Source of the DNA: a virus
Virus record (IMG/VR): IMGVR_UViG_3300035698_001083
Location: 1-20,192 of that record
Direction: 5' to 3' (one strand)
Length of the DNA stretch: 20,192 nucleotides
Under the pieces are notes generated by a model. That model was not told the origin of the DNA. It saw nothing but the letters and a program-made list of their open reading frames with translations, and did no database searches. The translations under genes were made by a program, and so were the position numbers. Below are positions 2,407 to 19,307 of the stretch, one piece after another (positions within the stretch are counted from its first letter, which is position 1; the number at the start of each line of letters is the position of its first letter).

Positions 2407-4515
2407 ATGATTGATATGCAAGAAGATAAATATTATGTTGATGGCAATGACAGTTTTATTAAGCAACGAATGGAAGATTTTTATAAAAGTTCCATATCAG
2501 TAAACCAAGCGTTTTGGGCTGAAGCTGAAATTGACCTGCGGTTTAAGAATGGAGATCAAACCGTGTGGGATAGTATATATGGTAATATGCCCGAGTACAG
2601 GAAGAAACAGTTCAATTTCAACAGGATTCAAAAGATCCTTAATATGATCACTGGACACCAACGAAAGAACCGAAAGAGCCTAGTAACCCTGCCCGTTGAA
2701 AACTCCGATCAATACACTTCAGATCAACTATCAAAAGCCCTATTTTGGTCAGTAAAAAGAGATAATGTTTTACATACCTTTTCTGATGCCTTTGAGGGAG
2801 CTGTTGGCGTTGGTATGAATATGTTATCTCCATGGATGGATTACCGATATGATACTATTAACGGCGATGTCAGGGTTGACAATGTTGGATACTCAAGTTA
2901 TATCATAGACCCATACTTTAGAAAAACAGATTTATCTGACTGCAACGGCTTATGGCGTAGATCGTACAGAACAAAAAAAACATTGGAAGGAATGTTTCCT
3001 GCGAGATCGGAAGACATAGATTTAATACGGACTACCGGAAACAAAGACGGTAAGTTTGAGTATATGCCGGAAGCACAGAACCTAAGCGATAGTAAACTGC
3101 TTGCTCTTGATGAATTTTGGTATTCAGATGATAGACCAGCCACTATTATAGAAGACGTAGTAACAGGCGATTCAGTAGAATTCTTTGGAGAAAAGGAAGA
3201 ACTAGATTCATTTATAGCCAATAATGAAAACGCCATAGTAAAAAAGATAAGAGTTCCAACAGTTAAAGTTTGCTATTCTGTTAATGGAACAGTTTTATAT
3301 AACGGCCCTAACCCCTACGGAACAGAGTTATTTCCAATAGATAAATATCCATTTATCCCTGTTCTTGGATACTATGAGCCAGATTTATCTTACTTACCGC
3401 TAAGAATACAAGGAGTATGCAGAGGCCTAAGAGATGCACAGTTCCTATATAACCGCCGTAAAGTTATCGAATTAGATATTTTAGAATCCCAACTAAATTC
3501 AGGATACATCTACGAAGAAAACGCCCTTGTTGATCCTAACGATGTATTTTTATCAGGACAAGGAAAAGGCTTAGCTGTTAAAGATGGAAGACTGGCAGGC
3601 ATTAAAGAGGTAACCCCTCCACAGATCCCGCCTTCAATGTTGCAAATATCCGAAAGCCTTGGCAATGAGATAATGCAAATATCCGGAGTTAACGAAGAGC
3701 TACTAGGATCGGCTACTGATGATAAAGCTGGCGTTCTTGCTATGTTAAGACAAGGTGCCGGACTTGTTACACTAGAAAAGCTTTTTGATAACAGTGATTA
3801 CGCATTTAAGTTATTAGGCGAAAGGATTGTTGAGATGATACAGGCAAACTTTAAATCCGCCAAGATTGAAAGAATAACAGGACAAGAGGCCTCCCCACAA
3901 TTTAAAGACAAAGCGTTCCAAAAATATGATATAGAAGTAGTTCAGGGAATGAACACCGAAACACAGAAACAAATGCAGTTTGCTCAAATGTTAGAGCTAC
4001 ACAATGCCGGTGTCCCTCTTGCTCCTGAAGATATACTTGATGCTAGCCAGATGCAGAACAAGGCAGAGCTTATTGAGAATATGAAGAAAAGAGAAGAGGT
4101 TCAAGCCCAACAAGCCCAGCAAGCTCAAATGATGCAGATAGAATTATTGAAAGCCCAAATAAATAGTGCTAACTCTAAAGCCCTGGCAGATCAAGGCCTT
4201 GGTATAGAAAGAGTTTCAAGAGTTTCAGAAAATGAATCATTAAGCGAATCAAGACACGCCCAAGCGATAGCAGATCTCCAAGATGCTCAGCTATCTAAAG
4301 CCAAAGCAATGAAAGAGCTTTCTGAAATGGACTTAAACGAAATAGAAAAGTTATTAATGTTATCTGATCGTTTAAAAGTAGATACTCTAGAAGATGCGCA
4401 AGAGGCAGGTTTTGAAGAGACTGGCCTAGGCGATAAGGTAGAAGCCTTACAAACATTACAGGCCTCCTCACAACAAACAATGGCGCAGACAATGGGGCAA
4501 AATCCTCAAATTTAA
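2407..4515 (+). CDS. P22-type portal protein
   Basis: The portal is the dodecameric ring at one vertex through which DNA enters and leaves, and it docks TerL and later the neck. The 702-residue length is close to P22 gp1 (725). The N-terminal part has the pattern typical of this family: an early helix with QFNFNRIQKILNMITGHQRK around residues 60-80, a segment VGYSSYIIDPYFRKTDLSDC around 160-180, and a central helix region with GVNEELLGSATDDKAG near 427-442. The C-terminal 150 residues are charged and Q-rich with predicted coiled coil (about 555-660), matching the long C-terminal barrel or tail of P22-type portals. AGGG lies 8 bases before the ATG. It is directly downstream of terL, as expected. 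Confidence 0.94.
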   Translation: MIDMQEDKYYVDGNDSFIKQRMEDFYKSSISVNQAFWAEAEIDLRFKNGDQTVWDSIYGNMPEYRKKQFNFNRIQKILNMITGHQRKNRKSLVTLPVENSDQYTSDQLSKALFWSVKRDNVLHTFSDAFEGAVGVGMNMLSPWMDYRYDTINGDVRVDNVGYSSYIIDPYFRKTDLSDCNGLWRRSYRTKKTLEGMFPARSEDIDLIRTTGNKDGKFEYMPEAQNLSDSKLLALDEFWYSDDRPATIIEDVVTGDSVEFFGEKEELDSFIANNENAIVKKIRVPTVKVCYSVNGTVLYNGPNPYGTELFPIDKYPFIPVLGYYEPDLSYLPLRIQGVCRGLRDAQFLYNRRKVIELDILESQLNSGYIYEENALVDPNDVFLSGQGKGLAVKDGRLAGIKEVTPPQIPPSMLQISESLGNEIMQISGVNEELLGSATDDKAGVLAMLRQGAGLVTLEKLFDNSDYAFKLLGERIVEMIQANFKSAKIERITGQEASPQFKDKAFQKYDIEVVQGMNTETQKQMQFAQMLELHNAGVPLAPEDILDASQMQNKAELIENMKKREEVQAQQAQQAQMMQIELLKAQINSANSKALADQGLGIERVSRVSENESLSESRHAQAIADLQDAQLSKAKAMKELSEMDLNEIEKLLMLSDRLKVDTLEDAQEAGFEETGLGDKVEALQTLQASSQQTMAQTMGQNPQI

Positions 4516-4537
4516 TAAATAATTTACATTTATTAAA
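4511..4537 (+). terminator. AT-only 10-bp hairpin at the end of the portal gene
   Basis: TTTAATAAAT (4511-4520) and ATTTATTAAA (4528-4537) are perfectly complementary around a 7-base loop. The stem overlaps the portal stop codon. It lacks G-C pairs and a following T run, so it is a weak terminator at best and may only shape the mRNA end. Confidence 0.3.
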
Positions 4538-4589
4538 TGGTGTTCAATAATGCGGTAGCTCTTTACATAGTGTTTAGAGGTTTTAACCT

Positions 4590-4602
4590 GGGATAATATC
4601 CC
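4590..4602 (+). promoter_or_regulatory. Hairpin just upstream of a ribosome site
   Basis: GGGAT-AAT-ATCCC forms a 5-bp stem with a 3-base loop, placed 8 bases before the GGAG ribosome site of the next small gene. Similar hairpins precede the scaffold and capsid genes, which suggests a shared role in mRNA processing, stability or translation. Confidence 0.35.
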
Positions 4603-4622
4603 GTTTACACCGGAGTTTTAAA

Positions 4623-4814
4623 ATGGCTAAGAAATTTTATGATGGTACTTCATTAAGTACTAGTAACCAATATGCTAACATGCCGCAAGAAGTAGTTCAC
4701 AAATCATACTCCAAGCAAGTTCTTGGTGGTGGTGATTGTAGTTACATTGATACCGAAGAAGGTATTAACAAGCTACATGCTGAAAATTCTCGTAAAATAA
4801 AGCGCATGAAGTAA
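4623..4814 (+). CDS. Small conserved-looking phage protein between portal and scaffold
   Basis: The gene encodes 63 residues starting MAKKFYDG, with a middle part NMPQEVVHKSYSKQVLGGG and a basic end KIKRMK. Its ribosome site is strong (GGAG, 7 bases before ATG). The pattern of a small protein with an NMPQ.V..KSY segment at this place recalls short uncharacterised proteins in other phages, but I know no function for them. There are no membrane segments or enzyme motifs. Its place inside the morphogenesis block suggests a minor virion or assembly role. It is followed by a GNRA-loop hairpin before the next gene. Confidence 0.7.
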   Translation: MAKKFYDGTSLSTSNQYANMPQEVVHKSYSKQVLGGGDCSYIDTEEGINKLHAENSRKIKRMK

Positions 4815-4822
4815 ATTTCATT

Positions 4823-4848
4823 GGGTCGGTAACGGCCCTTTATCTTTT
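4823..4848 (+). terminator. Small GNRA-loop hairpin with T-rich tail
   Basis: GGGTCG (4823-4828) pairs with CGGCCC (4833-4838), including one G-T pair, around the tetraloop GTAA. TTTATCTTTT follows. This resembles a short intrinsic terminator or attenuator. Since the next gene starts 14 bases on with its own ribosome site, partial readthrough is likely, which would tune expression between the small gene and the next one. Confidence 0.45.
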
Positions 4849-4861
4849 AAATGGTGGTAAT

Positions 4862-5311
4862 ATGAAAGATGCAAAAAGAAAGACAGTAGGGGCGCTTTCA
4901 TCGGAGCTTTTATTAAAGCCCGACAATAAGCAAGGCGTTGTTGATACTCAATTGGAGATATATAAAGAATATCTACCCAGTATAGAAAATCTTGTTAATG
5001 GTGAAGATTGCAAAGATTGGAAAGATCCCTTTTATGTTGTAGTGCTTATTAGACGTGAGAGATCAATGGTTAATGTAATAAGACATCATTTTGTAGCCCG
5101 TAAAACATTACCTACCCCTCAATATGATCAAGATACTTGGAAATACTTTCCAAGTTCAGGAACATTAGAATATTTATGGACAGTCCCGGCAAAGGACAAA
5201 GTTAATGAATTAATTATGCTTGAAGCCTCATATCCAAAATCTTTTAATGATTTAATACGATTCTGCAAACTATTTAAGGCTGATAAGCTTGATATTGTCT
5301 GCGGAAAATAA
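4862..5311 (+). CDS. Hypothetical protein of the head-assembly block
   Basis: This 149-residue protein is soluble, with no signal peptide or membrane segment. Its core has a distinctive run, FYVVVLIRRERSMVNVIRHH at about 57-76, followed by ARKTLPTPQYDQDTW and a C-terminal half rich in aromatic and leucine residues (LEYLWTVPAKDKVNELIML). This mixture looks like a conserved family found near portal and scaffold genes in related phages, but I cannot name a function. GGTGG before the ATG acts as ribosome site. Its position between portal and scaffold suggests an assembly or minor head protein. Confidence 0.75.
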   Translation: MKDAKRKTVGALSSELLLKPDNKQGVVDTQLEIYKEYLPSIENLVNGEDCKDWKDPFYVVVLIRRERSMVNVIRHHFVARKTLPTPQYDQDTWKYFPSSGTLEYLWTVPAKDKVNELIMLEASYPKSFNDLIRFCKLFKADKLDIVCGK

Positions 5312-8574: not shown

Positions 8575-8634
8575 GTGTCGATAGATATATTTTGATATCC
8601 ACTGTTGAAAACTTTTAAAATAATTTGTCGACAC
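8575..8634 (+). repeat. Inverted repeat before the tail genes, possible terminator
   Basis: GTGTCGA (8575-8581) and TCGACAC (8628-8634) can form a 7-bp stem over a 46-base AT-rich insert that has its own small hairpin (GATAT/ATATC). ATTTTTATT follows the right arm, so an RNA stem could end transcription of the head genes. The right arm also contains the -35 box of a candidate promoter. Confidence 0.4.
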
Positions 8635-8656
8635 ATTTTTATTAAAACAATATTAT
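8628..8656 (+). promoter_or_regulatory. Candidate sigma-70-like promoter for the tail genes
   Basis: TCGACA (8628-8633) and TATTAT (8651-8656) each match 5 of 6 consensus positions and are separated by exactly 17 bases. Transcription would start near 8663, just before the gene at 8676. This is the best promoter match seen in the window. The -35 box lies inside the right arm of an inverted repeat, so a repressor or an RNA stem from upstream could influence it. Confidence 0.5.
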
Positions 8657-8675
8657 AAAGATAAATGGTTAATAT

Positions 8676-9626
8676 ATGACAACATTAGAAAATATAAGAA
8701 TTAAGATAAGAAGACTAACAGCTAGTCCATCGCCTGCACAAATAACTGATGTTCAGATAAACAGTTATATAAATACTTTTTATTTAGATGATTTACCACA
8801 ACACCTAAAGCTTCTTGATCTTAAAAGTACATATACTTTTTATTCAGAGCCTAATATTGATCTTTATGATGTAAATTTTAATCCATCGTTTACTGATGAT
8901 ACTGTAGCTGCATATTACAGCCTAACACCACCAGTATATATATCTGGAAGCGTGGCCTCATATTCACAATCAAAAGCAGAGTTTAATAGAAGCTATCCAT
9001 TTGTAAATTCAGAAGATACTTTATCTGGCGATGGAACAGTTGGACCATATGCTATCACAGTAACTAATAGTCCTGTTTTGCGTAATATGGTAACAATTTC
9101 TGCTACCGATAGCGCTGGTAACAATCTTGTTGCTTATGATGATGGTTCAGGGGCTTTATCAGGTGATGCCACAGGTGTAATTAATTATGTTACCGGAGCA
9201 ATAACCGCTTTAACATTTACTGGATTAATACTAGCAACTGAAACAATAACTGTTCAGACTGCCCCATATGTTGCAAATAAGCCTAATTCTGTTTTATTTA
9301 GTAATAATAAAATAAAGCTAAGACCTATTCCGGATAAAACTTACAGAATAGATATTGATGCTATGATTTATCCGACTGTATTATTAGACGATGTTGACAA
9401 TCCAAACCCTCACTTTCTTTGGCAGTTATTAGCGATTGGAGCTTCAAAAAAGATATTAGAAGATAGAGGCGATATTGAATCAGTTTCTTCTTTAATGCCT
9501 TTATTTAATGAACAAATGACTTTATGTCAAAGACGCACAATACAACAGCAAACAAATAGCAGAACAGAAACAATATATAGTAATTCTAATCAAACATTCG
9601 GAGGACACTATGGCTTACTTAGATGA
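8676..9626 (+). CDS. Probable head-completion/neck protein with inserted beta domain
   Basis: The 316-residue protein has a helical N-terminal part (LENIRIKIRRLT, then DVQINSYINTFYLDDLPQHL, 20-42) and a helical C-terminal part (PHFLWQLLAIGASKKILEDR, then MPLFNEQMTLCQRRT, 245-290). That arrangement resembles head-completion or tail-accessory proteins that bind below the portal, the role of P22 gp4. Between them, residues about 112-197 form a beta module with LSGDATGVINYVTGA (161-175), which recurs in the large protein at 10784. P22 gp4 is about 166 residues, so the insert explains much of the extra length. The gene has no strong ribosome site but a good promoter candidate upstream. Its last 17 bases overlap the next gene in another frame. 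Confidence 0.65.
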   Translation: MTTLENIRIKIRRLTASPSPAQITDVQINSYINTFYLDDLPQHLKLLDLKSTYTFYSEPNIDLYDVNFNPSFTDDTVAAYYSLTPPVYISGSVASYSQSKAEFNRSYPFVNSEDTLSGDGTVGPYAITVTNSPVLRNMVTISATDSAGNNLVAYDDGSGALSGDATGVINYVTGAITALTFTGLILATETITVQTAPYVANKPNSVLFSNNKIKLRPIPDKTYRIDIDAMIYPTVLLDDVDNPNPHFLWQLLAIGASKKILEDRGDIESVSSLMPLFNEQMTLCQRRTIQQQTNSRTETIYSNSNQTFGGHYGLLR

Positions 9627-10197
9627 TATTCCAAACCCAGAAGATATTCAGGCTACTAGTCAAGGTCAGATAAAAGAGAACTTTGGACAGCTTGAAACAC
9701 AGTATAGTGTTGACCATGATTCATTATTAGCTGCTGGAGCTTCTGGAAAGCACCTTAAAGTTACTATGCCTGAAGTTACTTCAGATCCTGCTACTTCTGA
9801 AGATGAAGGAGCTTTATATACAAAAGATAGCGGTACTCAACCAGAGCTTTTCTATAGAGAAGAATTAAGTGGTGATTCTGTACAACTTACTGAAAGAGGC
9901 TATGCTATATCATTTATAAAGGCTTTTGTATCTTTTAGTGGTGCTGGTGTTATTGCTGGAACTGCTCTAAATGTTACAAGTGTTACAAGAACAGGTGGCG
10001 GAAGATATACTATAAATCTTACAACGGCTCTTGATGATGCTGACTATTTAGTAATTGGTAATTGTAATTCAACAGATATACGACTTTGGACTGTTCAAAA
10101 CTACGCAAAGTCTAATAATTCTTGCTCTGTTATAACTTGTAATAGTGGTACTCCTCAAGATGTATCAACAGATCTTATTATAATAAGGGTAGCCTAA
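9610..10197 (+). CDS. Tail appendage/fibre-like protein, paralog 1
   Basis: This 195-residue protein begins MAYLDDIPNPEDIQATSQGQ and continues NFGQLE.QYSVDHDSLL, GASGKHLKVTMPE and EGALYTKDSGTQPELFYREE. Such an opening is typical of phage fibre or appendage proteins that trimerise at the N terminus and carry a beta C-terminal domain. Residues about 103-195 form that domain, with YTINLTTALDDADYLVIGN. It is a full-length paralog of the next gene. GGAGG inside the end of the previous gene provides the ribosome site, and the stop overlaps the next start as TAATG. Its receptor or partner cannot be read from the sequence. Confidence 0.75.
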   Translation: MAYLDDIPNPEDIQATSQGQIKENFGQLETQYSVDHDSLLAAGASGKHLKVTMPEVTSDPATSEDEGALYTKDSGTQPELFYREELSGDSVQLTERGYAISFIKAFVSFSGAGVIAGTALNVTSVTRTGGGRYTINLTTALDDADYLVIGNCNSTDIRLWTVQNYAKSNNSCSVITCNSGTPQDVSTDLIIIRVA

Positions 10198-10784
10198 TGG
10201 CTTATTTAGACGACATACCAGATTCAAACGACATACAGCCAATAAGTCAGTCGCAGATAAAAACTAACTTTAAAGAGCTTGAGCGACAATTTAGCGTTGA
10301 CCATGACTCTTTATTAGAAGATAAAGCTTCTGGTAAACATCTTAAGGTTACCTTGCCAGAAATAGCTGCTGATCCTGCTACGGCTGCTAATGAAGGATGC
10401 GTATATACAAAAGACAGTGGAACACAGCCAGAACTATTTTATAGAGAAGAATCAAGTGGTGATGTGGTACAGCTTACCGAAGACGGCAGAAGGCCCTCAT
10501 ATATAAAAGCTTTTGTATCTTTTGATAATACAGGAGTTATTATTGGAGAGGCCTACAATGTTACTAGTGTTACAGGCTCTCTAGTGTATACTATAAACTT
10601 TACCAATGCGTTAGCCGATACTAATTATTTAGTAGTTGGCAATCCTAATTCTTCCGTTGTCAAGTCTTGGATTGTTCAAACATCCGCTAAAACAGTAAAC
10701 TCTTGTACTGTTATATGCCATAATCTCATATTACTTAGTGACCTAGTAACCGCAGTAGATATTGCAATAATAAGGATACTATAA
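10197..10784 (+). CDS. Tail appendage/fibre-like protein, paralog 2
   Basis: Also 195 residues, it aligns with the preceding protein over its whole length. The first 110 residues are closest (MAYLDDIP, NF..LE.Q.SVDHDSLL, ASGKHLKVT, DSGTQPELFYREE). The C-terminal beta domain keeps YIKAFVSF, YTINF..ALAD.NYLVVGN and AK..NSCTVI but differs more. It starts at the stop of its paralog (TAATG) with AGGG upstream, and itself overlaps the next start the same way. Equal length but clear divergence means an old tandem duplication. A mixed fibre, or two different receptor-binding ends, would fit. Confidence 0.75.
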   Translation: MAYLDDIPDSNDIQPISQSQIKTNFKELERQFSVDHDSLLEDKASGKHLKVTLPEIAADPATAANEGCVYTKDSGTQPELFYREESSGDVVQLTEDGRRPSYIKAFVSFDNTGVIIGEAYNVTSVTGSLVYTINFTNALADTNYLVVGNPNSSVVKSWIVQTSAKTVNSCTVICHNLILLSDLVTAVDIAIIRIL

Positions 10785-14050: not shown

Positions 14051-15319
14051 ATGGTTCAGATAGTACAACAGCGTGATATTGGCGAAGATATTGGGAAAGG
14101 TATAGGCACAGCTCTATCTACTCTTGGAGAGAAGCTCGCTCAACATAGGTCAGATAAAAAAGAATCTGATGCGTTAGAAAAACTAAGGTCTGGGTGGTCT
14201 GCTGAAACAACTCCAGAAGAAAAAGCTTTTGATGTAATGCAAGATTCTAATATTAGCGCTGAGACTAAAAAATCTATTCCTAAGCTGTTTTCTGATATGG
14301 CTAAGAAAAAGCAACAGGAATGGTCTCCAGAAAAACAAAAGGAATTATCATCTGCTTTTCAGGGTGTAGGTGTTGACGAAGAGAAGGCTAATAATTATGC
14401 TAATTTATACGGCCAACTAACTACTGGTGGGCAGACAGAAGCAGGAAAGATACTTCTTGATAATGTATTAAGAGACGGAAATCTTGGCGAAAAGCAACAG
14501 GCTAAAGAACCACAGAAACCAACCAAGCTTTTAGGCGAAGAAGTACAATATGAATATCCAGATCTTGATGTAATAGAAGGCTTAACTCCAAAAGAAAAAG
14601 CTTCATATAGAAAAGATTTGGCAAAATCAAATACTATAGATTATCAAGCGTCCAAAAAAACATTAAAATCTCTAAAGACAGACGGAGAAGCCGTTGAACA
14701 ACTTGGTAGACTTAGTGCTAGTGGTAAATTACCTGAAAATATTGGAAGAGTAAATCTTGATAAGCACGGTTATTTAAAAGTTCCATTTCTTGCAAATGAG
14801 CAGTCTCAATTATATGTTAAGACTATTAATGGATTTATTAAAAATGCCAGGGAATCGTTTGGTGCCAAAGTTACAAATTTCGAGTTAGATGCCTTTATGC
14901 AACAACTTCCTACTTTATCTTTAAGTCCAGAAGGAAGAACACTTGTATTGGCACAGATGGACAATATAAATAAAAGAGCGCAATTAAAACTTCAAGCTGA
15001 AAAAGCTGTTTATGATAAGTACGGATTATCAAATGTAGATATTCAGAAATTAGATAGTATATCAGACGATATGATCTCTGAAAAAAATACACAGCTAGAA
15101 CAAGAATTTTCTGATATTGTAAATAAATCAGATGAGCTAATTGAAAAGGCTAATAATAAACAAGGTGTAGGTTTTGACAAAAATAATTCTCCTGCAAATA
15201 CAGAACAAACTATAGTCAGCAAACTTCCCTCGCCTTCAACATATAAAGGTTATGCTACTGATGATAAGACTGGTAAAAGATATTATAGTGATGGAGTTAA
15301 TTGGAGTGAGGCAAAATAA
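14051..15319 (+). CDS. Probable internal virion / DNA-ejection protein
   Basis: The 422-residue protein is almost wholly helical and hydrophilic. It starts MVQIVQQRDIGEDIGKGIGT with a small GIGT/LST amphipathic stretch, then charged repeats of helix. There is no signal peptide and no enzyme motif. The last 25 residues (STYKGYATDDKTGKRYYSDG, VNWSEAK) form a small W/Y-rich unit. Such start and end patterns are seen in phage internal proteins. Its place matches P22 gp20/gp7. Start is supported by GGAG 7 bases upstream, and the stop overlaps the next start. Direct sequence likeness to a named protein is not certain. Confidence 0.58.
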   Translation: MVQIVQQRDIGEDIGKGIGTALSTLGEKLAQHRSDKKESDALEKLRSGWSAETTPEEKAFDVMQDSNISAETKKSIPKLFSDMAKKKQQEWSPEKQKELSSAFQGVGVDEEKANNYANLYGQLTTGGQTEAGKILLDNVLRDGNLGEKQQAKEPQKPTKLLGEEVQYEYPDLDVIEGLTPKEKASYRKDLAKSNTIDYQASKKTLKSLKTDGEAVEQLGRLSASGKLPENIGRVNLDKHGYLKVPFLANEQSQLYVKTINGFIKNARESFGAKVTNFELDAFMQQLPTLSLSPEGRTLVLAQMDNINKRAQLKLQAEKAVYDKYGLSNVDIQKLDSISDDMISEKNTQLEQEFSDIVNKSDELIEKANNKQGVGFDKNNSPANTEQTIVSKLPSPSTYKGYATDDKTGKRYYSDGVNWSEAK

Positions 15320-17946
15320 TGGCATTTATTCTTGAAGATTTAGAGCAAGAAGACGATATTCAGCAACAACCTATTCAGCAAGAACCTGTTCAGGAAGGTT
15401 TTACATTGGAAGGAGATCTTAATCAAGAACCTGTAGAAGAACCTGCTGAAGAACCTGCTGAAGAACCTGTTGAAGAAAAAGAGCTAAACAGATTCTCTAA
15501 ATATTTAAGAAAGTCATATCAAGAAGAAACTGGTCTATTCAAGAAAGAAAAAGGACCTTTGGATTACATAAAAAAGCCTAAAGAAAAGTCGGAAGATGGA
15601 AAAAGATCTTGGTTTTCTGATGTAGCTCTTCAAATGTCAAAAGGAGCTTTGAAAGCCTTAACATATCCAGCTGACTTATTTAAAGCAGCCGCTAGCGGAA
15701 TGGCTCTCGATATATTAAAAGAAGAAAAATCTAATGCCATACAAGAAGGTAGAGATTTTGATATTGATGCCGCCTGGGAAGTAGCACAGGAAGGCTTAGA
15801 CAAGATTCCTACTCAAGATTTTTTAGAAGGTTATTTAGAAGATGTATTAGAAGAAGATTTTGGTCCACAAAGTGAGTCTGCTAAATATCTTGGTAAGGCT
15901 GCTGAAATAGCTTCTTTTGTACCTGGAGAAACTGTTGCAAAGACATTAGCTGGTGCTGGTGCTGGTGCTGCAGTAAATCTTGCTTCCGATAAACTAGGTC
16001 TTCCAGAACCTGTTGGAGAGATTGCTGGAATGGTAACATCTGGAGGCACTCAACTTATAAAAACCCCTACTAAATTAAGTCCAAAAACAGCAAAAATAAA
16101 AACTCCTAAAGCTTTAACAAAAAAACTTATTGGTGAAGAAGTTGGAGTAACGTCACGTCAGACACAAGAGAAAGCCATACAGGCATTACAGTCATTTGAT
16201 GAAGGAGTCGTTAAAGATACTAAGCTACGCCCAGAAAAGCCCGTTAAAGCATCTAAAAAGTTATCAGATATAGAAGCTAAAGCCTTTACAAAAGAAAAGG
16301 AGCTTACTAAGGCAGAGAAGCTTGCAGAGTCTATTTCCAAGAAAGAAGAGTCTATTGCAGATGCTGCTAGAAAAGAAAAACTTGATGTTCTTAAAGAGCA
16401 TAAAGACAAGATATCTAACCTAAGCCCTGAAGCAGAAGTTGTGCATAATAATGTATCTGATTCTGTTTCTAAAGAATCTTTTAAGAGTAATACTGAGGCA
16501 GGTAAGAGCATACAAAAGGCTGTAAAAGAAGCTAAAGATGTAGAGCATAAACAGATAAATAAATTATATAAAATTGCAGAGAAGGACACTAGTAAACACG
16601 CAGGAAAAGCCGATAATTTAGTTACATATATTGAAAAGAAAGTAGATCAGCTGGATCAAACATTACATAAATCTCCCGGCGAAAAGAAGGTATTAAATAC
16701 TTACAACGATATATTATTTAATCTAAGAGATAAGGGAGGAAATGCAAGAAATGTTAAGGTATCTGAACTGATAAAAACTTCTGATAGTGTGGCCTCTGAA
16801 ATAAACTATATAAATTATGAGCCAGATGCGAAAGACATTTTAAAAGGTTTACCAACTAGAATAAATGAAGAAGCTAGACGTATTGTTGTATCAAGAGGCG
16901 GAAGCACTAAAAGTATTGATATTGCAGATAAAGCATATGGTGAATGGAGTAATAAATATATTAATAAAGATATGAAGCCATATCTTCAAATAAGAGAAGT
17001 TAATCCAGAAGAACTCTTTGCCGGTATACATAAAGAAGAAGTATATAGGTCTATATACCAAGCTCTTCCAGAGGGAAAAGTAAAGGCAGAATTATTGACT
17101 AAGTCAGCTAAAGAAATTATTCCTAACAGACTTAATCCTTTTATAAAAGACATTGAAAAAGTAGGTGGAAAAGCTTACGAAAGAGAGATAGAGAACTTAA
17201 AGGGATTTCTGCCAGAAGAATTAGTGAACAAAGCTGATACTGCCATGAAAGCAGAGAAACTTGGCTATAACAAACTAAAAAATGCTGAAGCTTTTAGAAA
17301 GAATGAAGTTAAACTCTTAAAATCAAATGAAGTTACGGAAAAAGCTACAAAAAAAGCTATAGAGCTTGAAAAAGAACAGGCTAAATTAGCTAAAGAAGAG
17401 TTGAGGGCTAAGAAAAGTAAAGAAGGCGAAAAACCTCGTAGTATAATTAGACGGTCACAGGAAAATGCTAAGACAAAAACTCCTAAAGAAACAGAATATA
17501 CTAAAAAGGTAAAGTCTATTGCCAAATGGTCTAAGGAAACACCTGAAACATTAGCTAAAAAGATGGATTCAGTATCTGGTATTAATGAAATAGAGGCCTC
17601 TTTATTAAAGAAAAAAGGTGGAGATAAAATCTACAATTCTCTAAAAAAGTCCAAGATAAGAGATATTGTTCAACCTAAAATAGGTGAAAAGCTTACAGGC
17701 GAAAGCGTTAGTAAGACATTGGCTAATAGAAAAAACTATGATCTTTTAGAAAAGCTAATTGGTAAAGAAGAGCTAGATTCTATTATTGAAGTTGCTAACA
17801 TCATTGGAAAGAAAGAAATTAGAAGAAATTCAGTTATTAAATTTAGCAAGCGTACTTTAACACTTGTAGGAGGCTACGCTGCCGTAAATAAATTACGCAG
17901 ATATTTATTCGGTGGAAGTACTAGAAATAATTATGCAGTAGACTAA
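15319..17946 (+). CDS. Large probable DNA-ejection protein (gp16/gp20 position)
   Basis: The 875-residue protein begins with an acidic, proline-dotted arm holding four EEPVEEPAEE-type units (about 37-52). A glycine- and alanine-rich hydrophobic stretch follows near 195-245 (VAKTLAGAGAGAAVNLASDK, then GEIAGMVTSGGTQLI). Long lysine- and glutamate-rich helices fill 270-420 and 670-740. A short hydrophobic piece, TLTLVGGYAAVNKLRRYLFG, lies near the end. This mix of coiled coil and membrane-active stretches fits ejection proteins that form a conduit through the envelope. No lysozyme or transglycosylase motif is evident to me. It is the last + strand gene before the minus-strand module, and its stop codon overlaps the end of a minus-strand open frame. 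Confidence 0.62.
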   Translation: MAFILEDLEQEDDIQQQPIQQEPVQEGFTLEGDLNQEPVEEPAEEPAEEPVEEKELNRFSKYLRKSYQEETGLFKKEKGPLDYIKKPKEKSEDGKRSWFSDVALQMSKGALKALTYPADLFKAAASGMALDILKEEKSNAIQEGRDFDIDAAWEVAQEGLDKIPTQDFLEGYLEDVLEEDFGPQSESAKYLGKAAEIASFVPGETVAKTLAGAGAGAAVNLASDKLGLPEPVGEIAGMVTSGGTQLIKTPTKLSPKTAKIKTPKALTKKLIGEEVGVTSRQTQEKAIQALQSFDEGVVKDTKLRPEKPVKASKKLSDIEAKAFTKEKELTKAEKLAESISKKEESIADAARKEKLDVLKEHKDKISNLSPEAEVVHNNVSDSVSKESFKSNTEAGKSIQKAVKEAKDVEHKQINKLYKIAEKDTSKHAGKADNLVTYIEKKVDQLDQTLHKSPGEKKVLNTYNDILFNLRDKGGNARNVKVSELIKTSDSVASEINYINYEPDAKDILKGLPTRINEEARRIVVSRGGSTKSIDIADKAYGEWSNKYINKDMKPYLQIREVNPEELFAGIHKEEVYRSIYQALPEGKVKAELLTKSAKEIIPNRLNPFIKDIEKVGGKAYEREIENLKGFLPEELVNKADTAMKAEKLGYNKLKNAEAFRKNEVKLLKSNEVTEKATKKAIELEKEQAKLAKEELRAKKSKEGEKPRSIIRRSQENAKTKTPKETEYTKKVKSIAKWSKETPETLAKKMDSVSGINEIEASLLKKKGGDKIYNSLKKSKIRDIVQPKIGEKLTGESVSKTLANRKNYDLLEKLIGKEELDSIIEVANIIGKKEIRRNSVIKFSKRTLTLVGGYAAVNKLRRYLFGGSTRNNYAVD
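15427..15474 (+). repeat. Four tandem 12-base units in a coding region
   Basis: GAACCTG(T/C)(A/T)GAA is repeated four times, encoding EPVE/EPAE units in the acidic arm of the large ejection protein. Copy number could vary by slippage. Confidence 0.85.
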
Positions 17947-18056
17947 CTCTTGTAATAGTCTCTATCTATCTTTTCTTTAATGGCTAGATTAACAAACTCT
18001 TGCATAGACATTTCTATTGATGCCAAATATGTTTTAATGATGCCAAGTATGTCTTC
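17943..18056 (-). pseudogene. Possible remnant of a ribbon-helix-helix repressor gene
   Basis: A minus-strand frame, open for 37 codons from a stop at 18057-18059 to TAG at 17943-17945, reads ...GIIKTYLASIEMSMQEFVNL then AIKEKIDRDYYKS. Helix, turn MS, then QEFVNLAIKEKI matches the C-terminal two helices of Arc/CopG-type DNA-binding proteins. No ATG with a ribosome site precedes it; the first ATG (18009-18011) would give 22 residues. Its upstream part overlaps the end of the HNH gene. In P22 the arc, mnt and ant genes lie at the same place, between ejection and tailspike genes. It is short, so chance likeness cannot be excluded. Confidence 0.35.
18018..18055. repeat. Tandem copy of the HNH gene 3' end
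   Basis: TGATGCCAAATATGTTTT (18018-18035) and TGATGCCAAGTATGTCTT (18038-18055) match at 16 of 18 bases with a 20-base period. Read on the minus strand, the first copy met encodes the endonuclease end HTWHH-stop, and the second would encode HIWHQ-stop in another frame. This looks like a recombination or insertion scar. Confidence 0.6.
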
Positions 18057-18594
18057 TTATTAGTCTTCCTATAGTAGTAGAATCAACTTTAAACATAGAG
18101 CCTAAATATTTATAAGAATATTTTCCAGTTGAGTACATATCTCTTATCTTTTCAACATCTGATTTTTTTAATTTGCAAGATGGATTCTTTTCTCCTTTAA
18201 AATCTGGAATTCTATTTCTTTTTGCTTTATCTCGCATATTATCAGTATGAGTTCCTAGATATAAAATATTTGGGCATACATTTGATGGATTATCATCTTT
18301 ATGACATACGAACATATCTAAAGGAATATTTCCTTTATGATATATATAAGAAAACCTATGGGCTAATATTTTTTTACGATTTAAATTTATTACACCATAT
18401 CCTTTATCATTACATATTCCTATCCATTCCCAAAGATTTTTAGATACTATTTTTATATTTTTGAAAAAGACTTCTTCAAGAGATGCTCCATGAAAATTAG
18501 ATTTACATTTTCTAGAACAAAAATTATGATTCCATTTTGTATATCTTATAAGATTTTTTCCGCAGTAATCACAATAAACAGAAAATTTTGTCAT
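18034..18594 (-). CDS. HNH homing-type endonuclease
   Basis: The 186-residue protein is the only clear gene on the minus strand. An N-terminal zinc ribbon has C8-C11 and C26-C30. The HNH core reads AHRFSYIYHKGNIP (78-91), then CHKDDNPSNVCPNILYLGTH (97-116) with H79, H98, N109, H116 and TDN at 117-119. A C-terminal helix-turn-helix (about 136-186) ends IGRLIRRHTWHH and probably contacts DNA. Such free-standing enzymes cut phage lacking the gene and spread by repair. I chose the ATG at 18594 because GAGGG lies 7 bases upstream; an ATG nine codons earlier has no ribosome site. It stands against the late genes, so late transcripts from upstream would be antisense to it. Confidence 0.93.
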   Translation of the reverse strand: MTKFSVYCDYCGKNLIRYTKWNHNFCSRKCKSNFHGASLEEVFFKNIKIVSKNLWEWIGICNDKGYGVINLNRKKILAHRFSYIYHKGNIPLDMFVCHKDDNPSNVCPNILYLGTHTDNMRDKAKRNRIPDFKGEKNPSCKLKKSDVEKIRDMYSTGKYSYKYLGSMFKVDSTTIGRLIRRHTWHH

Positions 18595-18628
18595 AAATAA
18601 ACCCTCGCAAGTTTCTCGCATTAAAAGT

Positions 18629-18679
18629 AAGAGTCAGCTACTGCGAGTAGTAGATTTCGGCTGGCCGGCCTAGACTCTT
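18629..18679 (-). promoter_or_regulatory. GC-rich branched stem element, possible HNH leader
   Basis: AAGAGTC (18629-18635) and GACTCTT (18673-18679) close a 7-bp stem. Inside it are CTACT-GCG-AGTAG (18638-18650) and a GC block with GGCCGGCC (18663-18670), which can fold as a second hairpin. A perfect minus-strand -10 box TATAAT (18692-18687) would start an RNA near 18680, so this structure would be the 5' leader of the endonuclease mRNA. CTCGCA motifs recur nearby (18604, 18615 and, inverted, 18642). The closing stem is complementary in DNA and RNA alike, so an operator is also possible. Confidence 0.45.
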
Positions 18680-18706
18680 GATATTAATTATACGTATCTG
18701 TATGTT
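18678..18706 (+). promoter_or_regulatory. Weak candidate promoter for the fibre genes
   Basis: TTGATA (18678-18683, 5/6) and TATGTT (18701-18706, 4/6) are 17 bases apart. Transcription would begin near 18713 and lead to the gene at 18768. It overlaps the possible minus-strand -10 box of the endonuclease, giving a divergent pair. The DNA is very AT-rich, so the match is weak evidence. Confidence 0.3.
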
Positions 18707-18767
18707 AAAAATATATATATACAATTCGTATATAAGAATTATATTTAAATATAAAAGGAGATTTTAA

Positions 18768-19307
18768 ATGTCTAGTGATCCATTAAAATATTTAGGACGC
18801 GATAAAGCATCATCAGCAGAATCAATTGCCGGAACAAATAATTATAAAGCTGTTACACCTGAGGGACTTCAAGCCAGTCTTGATAGTGTTATAGCCTCTC
18901 CTGGAGCGATTGGTGGAACAACACCTGCTGCTGGAACATTTACAACACTTACTGCTACTGATGTAAATATTTCTGGTAAATCAGTTTATACTCCAGATGC
19001 AATAACTGCTACTAGTGCTGGCGTTGCCGCTTCTGTTGCTACTGTTGTTACAGAAATCACAACTAATGGTGATAGTGATCTTGATAATGTTACTCTTGCT
19101 AATGGTATAGATGGTCAAGTTAAGATATTTGCTGTTGTTGCTGTTGGAAATGCTGCTGACTCTGTAAAGATTACACCTGCTAGTATGATAGGTGGTACAC
19201 AGATTACATTTGCTGCAAATCCTCTTGGATTGGGTTGCCAGATGGTATACGACGCTGGTGCTGCTGGCTGGATAGTAACAGGCAATAATGCTGGTACAGT
19301 AGCTTAA
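18768..19307 (+). CDS. Fibre/appendage structural protein
   Basis: The 179-residue protein has a short adaptor-like start (SSDPLKYLGRDKASSAESIA, then YKAVTPEGLQASLDSVI) followed by GAIGGTTPAAGTFTTLTATD. The last motif is a common beta repeat in phage tail fibres and head fibres. The rest is a threonine-, alanine- and valine-rich beta region ending GAAGWIVTGNNAGTVA, which looks like a tip domain with a GWxVxG strand. It has a strong ribosome site AGGAG and is the first gene after the minus-strand module. A strong terminator follows, so it forms its own short transcription unit unless readthrough occurs. Confidence 0.75.
   Translation: MSSDPLKYLGRDKASSAESIAGTNNYKAVTPEGLQASLDSVIASPGAIGGTTPAAGTFTTLTATDVNISGKSVYTPDAITATSAGVAASVATVVTEITTNGDSDLDNVTLANGIDGQVKIFAVVAVGNAADSVKITPASMIGGTQITFAANPLGLGCQMVYDAGAAGWIVTGNNAGTVA

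Follow-up and report, generated by a model that had tools for sequence, protein, structure and literature searches.

The short open reading frame of 37 codons on the minus strand at positions 18056-17943 of the window (the entire 20,192-base IMG/VR record, possibly a fragment of a genome) is very probably the 3' remnant of a small ribbon-helix-helix (RHH) repressor gene, truncated by an HNH endonuclease gene and the probable leader RNA in front of it. The original prediction had taken the whole frame for the C-terminal helices of an Arc/CopG protein, left at the place of the arc-mnt-ant module of P22 when an HNH gene replaced a control module there. The frame is a real gene relic, and the likeness to RHH proteins holds for codons 7-37, but codons 1-6 are the 3' end of the HNH gene. 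The replacement, too, was partial: the 5' third of the RHH gene and its upstream region were lost, but not the whole locus, and the regulatory role of what was lost would follow from the family and the position of the gene.

The frame reads EDILGIIKTYLASIEMSMQEFVNLAIKEKIDRDYYKS* and consists of two parts. The RHH-homologous part comprises codons 7-37 (18038-17946; 17943-18038 with the stop codon, minus strand; IKTYLASIEMSMQEFVNLAIKEKIDRDYYKS*), the C-terminal two thirds of an RHH gene, and corresponds to residues 19-49 of the intact gene in the related contig L014, which span the greater part of helix A together with the turn and helix B. The first six codons (EDILGI, 18039-18056, minus strand) lie inside the HNH ORF (18034-18621) and represent its 3' end read in another frame; upstream of 18038 there is no homology to L014. 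The RHH homology ends at 18038, no more than 2 bases from the HNH stop codon (TAA, 18036-18034), and at the other end the TAG codon of the remnant overlaps the stop codon of the convergent ejection gene (15319-17946). The HNH/RHH junction is spanned by a 20-bp direct repeat (18012-18051; copies 18012-18031 and 18032-18051, 85% identity), within which a part of the 37-codon frame falls. It pairs the HNH 3' end CATACTTGGCATCATTAA with similar RHH coding DNA CATATTTGGCATCAATAG in another frame, and may have been left when the two sequences were joined.

Thirty-seven codons are by themselves little evidence, but this frame exceeds chance. Scans of the 37 residues against Pfam, PHROGs and NCBIfam, the check proposed originally, gave nothing significant; as such generic profiles are blind to the 37 residues, the likeness can be proven only through relatives. 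The family profile was built from the RHH genes that six relatives have at this locus and did not include the window. By this profile the remnant is the first of 529 open frames in the window (34.1 bits, E-value 5.7e-10); the second-best frame reaches 6.8 bits, and 60 shuffled windows give at most 11.9. A stricter profile omits L014, the one relative detected with the sequence of the remnant itself, and still places the remnant first (20.7 bits, E-value 8e-6). Omission of L024 as well lowers the score to 8.2 bits and the signal disappears; the profile claim thus depends on the L014/L024 branch. In a blastp alignment with L014, 18 of 31 residues are identical and 26 of 31 similar, with an E-value of 4e-13 that applies to this one comparison only; over 27 residues, the L014 protein is 63% identical to the remnant. 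Identity at the three codon positions amounts to 21, 25 and 12 of 31 and the replacements are conservative, a pattern that shows past selection as a protein in this frame. It would be very improbable for all this to be a chance ORF, in which a low-complexity pattern of helices imitates an RHH protein. The brevity of the frame and the silence of the generic scans are compatible with that idea, as is the contribution of the unrelated repeat and HNH 3' end to its length; however, neither the first rank retained without L014, nor the intact homologue at the orthologous locus, nor the codon-position signature would then be expected.

As anticipated in the original prediction, relatives without the HNH gene have an intact RHH gene at this place. 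It is present on the same strand in all six relatives with a complete ejection-to-fibre interval (L003, L014, L015, L017, L024 and L025), so that neither an empty interval nor an unrelated gene was encountered, and none of the six carries an HNH gene there. Five of these relatives were located only through flanking genes: L003 via homologues of the ejection and fibre genes, L015 and L017 via the gene after the fibre, and L024 and L025 via the fibre N-terminus. In each of the five, an ORF of about 44-62 aa lies on the minus strand between the ejection gene and the fibre. Its best Pfam match is ParD in L015 (27.6 bits, over the cut-off) and, just below the cut-off, ParD in L003 (24.6 bits) and L017 (20.5 bits), RHH_1 in L024 (17.7 bits) and HicB in L025 (20.5 bits). 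The sixth, L014, was detected when the remnant and the L003 gene were aligned and the alignment was used as the query; its intact gene (51 aa, 4947-5102), whose protein has no match in Pfam, has the place and orientation of the remnant, and the gene that follows the fibre, 56% identical, anchors the synteny of L014 with the window. A match to the L014 RHH protein in a further contig, L019, proved spurious, as it falls within a longer unrelated frame. In the nearest relative of the window, L002 (97% DNA identity over 8.6 kb), the sequence switches 12 bases before the ejection stop to a TnpB-type gene (N-terminus of TnpB, 8604-8832; HTH_OrfB_IS605, 68.7 bits), after which the contig ends; this IS605-type element is a second mobile element at the ejection/fibre boundary. 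Among 50,697 phage records, tblastn yielded nothing relevant with the remnant, with the RHH proteins of L014, L024 and L025, with the fibre N-terminus of L015 or with the ejection protein.

The intact relatives have the architecture of RHH proteins (an N-terminal strand and two helices in about 45-60 aa), of which the remnant retains the helices only. According to the Pfam matches, the profile comparison with PDB sequences and the predicted fold, they belong to the RHH (MetJ/Arc/CopG) superfamily and resemble its ParD/ParG/CopG type, whose members are their best sequence-profile matches: ParD, HicB and RHH_1 in Pfam, and in the PDB, for a profile that includes the window remnant, ParG (E-value 1.5e-4), an antitoxin (1e-3) and ParD (8e-3), with protein 56B also among the best. 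An AlphaFold model of the L014 protein, calculated with the family alignment (mean pLDDT 87), has an extended N-terminus and helices at residues 13-26 and 30-46. All 13 Foldseek matches of this model in the PDB are RHH proteins, including TacA1, P22 Arc (TM 0.65-0.69), CopG, CdbA, MatP, VapB, AmrZ and Reg576; every E-value exceeds 0.8, as expected for 51 residues, and the fold support is qualitative. The predicted likeness thus stands at the level of the superfamily but not for Arc and Mnt themselves, to which there is no sequence homology: the family profile gives Arc -0.7 bits and Mnt 1.5 bits, and the hhalign probabilities are 0.2% and 18%, respectively.

The gene that abuts the remnant is a complete, free-standing HNH endonuclease gene with a C-terminal helix-turn-helix (18034-18621, minus strand). 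Its first ATG is at 18621, and the likely start is at 18594, where MTKFSVYCDYC follows a GAGGG motif. The protein matches HNH_3 in Pfam (31 bits, over the cut-off), HTH_38 below the cut-off (22.4 bits), and phrog_59 in PHROGs (E-value 5e-25). In this combination of domains and in its seat between late genes it resembles the free-standing phage HNH endonucleases of phrog_59; unlike these, the window copy truncates its neighbour and has ahead of it a probable int-alpA RNA element (RF02996, 18614-18680, minus strand). The match to the latter is structural and full-length, with 33.9 bits (E-value 4.5e-5 over 881 bases) against an Rfam gathering threshold of 35.8, and a TATAAT motif (18692-18687) ends 6 nt before it. 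Searches for an int-alpA element in the relatives and beside five other phage HNH genes were negative, and a scan of viral contigs gave no close relative of the HNH gene. A group I intron was also considered for the HNH region and discarded, as Rfam recognises no intron there. Matches to the HNH protein occur in 775 phage records, and several alignments reach its last residue, which indicates that the protein in the window is complete. This bears on the idea that the 37-codon frame is no separate gene but the true C-terminus of the HNH protein, severed by a frameshift. The frame does lie on the same strand, immediately downstream and overlapping, but phage homologues align up to the last residue of the window protein, and the homologues of the frame are independent small genes in phages that have no HNH gene there; we reject this explanation, which has an exceedingly small chance of being correct. 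Nothing RHH-like was detected when the lost N-terminal half was sought in the three minus-strand frames of 18594-18790. The RHH gene has therefore been partly replaced rather than simply interrupted, since its N-terminal codons are absent upstream of the HNH gene. As the window is the sole available genome with this HNH insertion, its contig may conceivably be a chimeric assembly. The fibre region of L015 contains what look like fragments of an HNH gene (9936-10090, minus strand; final residues ...SWKHVED), and gain and loss of HNH genes seem to recur near the fibres in this phage group.

The comparison with the position of the arc-mnt-ant module was well chosen. In the annotation of P22 the second immunity region of this phage, immI, lies between genes 16 and 9, in the order 16> | <sieA <orf59a <mnt | arc> ant> | 9>, so that immI shares with the window and its six relatives the slot from the last ejection gene to the tailspike or fibre, and mnt, like the RHH gene here, is read in the opposite direction to the late genes. 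Behind mnt, P22 has sieA, in place of which four relatives have short hydrophobic, presumably membrane ORFs behind the RHH gene on the same strand (L003, L015, L017 and L024), and L025 has a P63C-domain gene directly behind it (3827-4846, minus strand, 97 bits) and a short hydrophobic ORF as well. P63C is linked in other phages to antirepressor-type proteins, and the L025 gene is a possible counterpart of P22 ant. Unlike immI, the locus has one RHH gene and no recognised arc or ant, the latter being sought by reading the ORFs of the interval. The membrane ORFs are also smaller (28-96 aa) than SieA, a protein of 162-164 aa with three predicted transmembrane domains (PMC10883804). Salmonella phage L likewise has a degraded mnt-like gene and offers a precedent for this evolutionary step; that gene is a poorly conserved homologue for which no displacement by an HNH gene is mentioned, whereas the RHH gene of the window was cut sharply.

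RHH proteins bind DNA as dimers, through the pair formed by their N-terminal strands, and autorepression of their promoters is common. On these grounds we envisage that phages of this lineage have a small gene for an RHH repressor where the last ejection gene gives way to the first fibre gene, oriented against the late genes. Its product would be a dimer whose paired strands bind a putative operator in the gap of about 96-125 bp between the start of the RHH gene and that of the divergent fibre gene, and by acting on its own promoter it would control both itself and, where present, the membrane ORF(s) or the P63C gene behind. Such an autoregulated cassette on the opposite strand would resemble in its layout mnt with sieA/ant of P22, and may possibly serve superinfection exclusion. 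Near-consensus promoters precede the RHH gene in two of the six relatives (TTGACA-17-TACAAT in L014 and TTGACT-17-TAAAAT in L017) and are not clear in the other four; no operator or dyad common to the RHH-fibre gaps of the relatives was found. Cro-like HTH_3 genes are present in the L017 and L025 contigs, and a tyrosine integrase is seen in none of the seven partial contigs.

The main rival to a phage regulator is an antitoxin of the ParD, HicB or BrnA type, with the small ORF behind it as the toxin. The best Pfam and NCBIfam likenesses are indeed to ParD, HicB and BrnA, and in L015, L017 and L003 the hydrophobic ORFs downstream of the RHH gene could be taken for its partners. However, no ParE-, HicA- or BrnT-like toxin was recognised beside any copy, and the ORFs behind the gene vary among the relatives. 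In the window and in L014 the RHH gene has no such companion, its stop codon overlapping that of the ejection gene, and the neighbours that are conserved are the ejection and fibre genes. The proteins also differ from ParD/ParG/CopG-type regulators in having 44-62 aa and no recognised partition ATPase or ParE-type toxin alongside. We consider an antitoxin rather unlikely and prefer a phage repressor, into whose locus the HNH gene and its leader RNA would have landed, at the cost of the upstream region and about 18 codons at the 5' end.

After such a loss the remnant should be inactive, as the strand that contacts DNA and the upstream region are gone and there is no evident start signal. On the other hand, the helices left in it are the part by which RHH proteins form dimers, as established for Arc and CopG, and its 31 codons contain no internal stop. 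A peptide of these helices, translated after the HNH gene, might dimerise and interfere with the RHH repressors of related phages. We find this highly improbable: no clear ribosome-binding site or start is present, the beginning of helix A is missing, and the sequence, at 31 codons, is too short for ongoing selection to be demonstrated.

The interpretation as a truncated repressor gene explains an otherwise meaningless frame and captures the slot during loss through an HNH gene. It extends the classical layout of P22, where an RHH regulator lies in the interval that separates the ejection genes from the tailspike, to an uncultured group of podoviruses that lacks sequence likeness to Arc and Mnt. 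It is conceivable, if doubtful, that in this group, where P22 immI sequences are not detectable, the RHH cassette with its variable passengers constitutes a second immunity or superinfection-exclusion locus, repeatedly disabled by mobile elements such as the HNH gene with the int-alpA RNA in the window and the IS605-type element in L002. The cassettes of L014, L015 and L025 are short sequences with which one could test if superinfection exclusion or antirepression generally resides in this slot, and the link between HNH and int-alpA deserves a wider search.

The portal, coat and terminase proteins of the window match phage families, the relatives of the portal including phages such as BcepMigl, Itty13 and KPP25. 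The gene on the left side of the locus (15319-17946, plus strand) encodes a presumed ejection protein of 875 aa, which is 94% identical to L002 and 25% identical to its positional counterpart in L003. On the right side, divergent from the HNH gene and the remnant, lies a tail-fibre-like gene of 179 aa (18768-19307, plus strand). Searches of genome contigs with fibre N-termini for a prophage or a host returned nothing. The C-terminal ~110 residues of the fibre (window 18988-19307) are 52-89% identical in ten viral contigs (L003-L012) that are otherwise mostly different, which suggests a mobile fibre-tip domain. Elsewhere in the window, two adjacent genes of 195 aa (9610-10197 and 10197-10784) have the look of tandem paralogues, with about 72% DNA identity revealed by cross-matches to L002.
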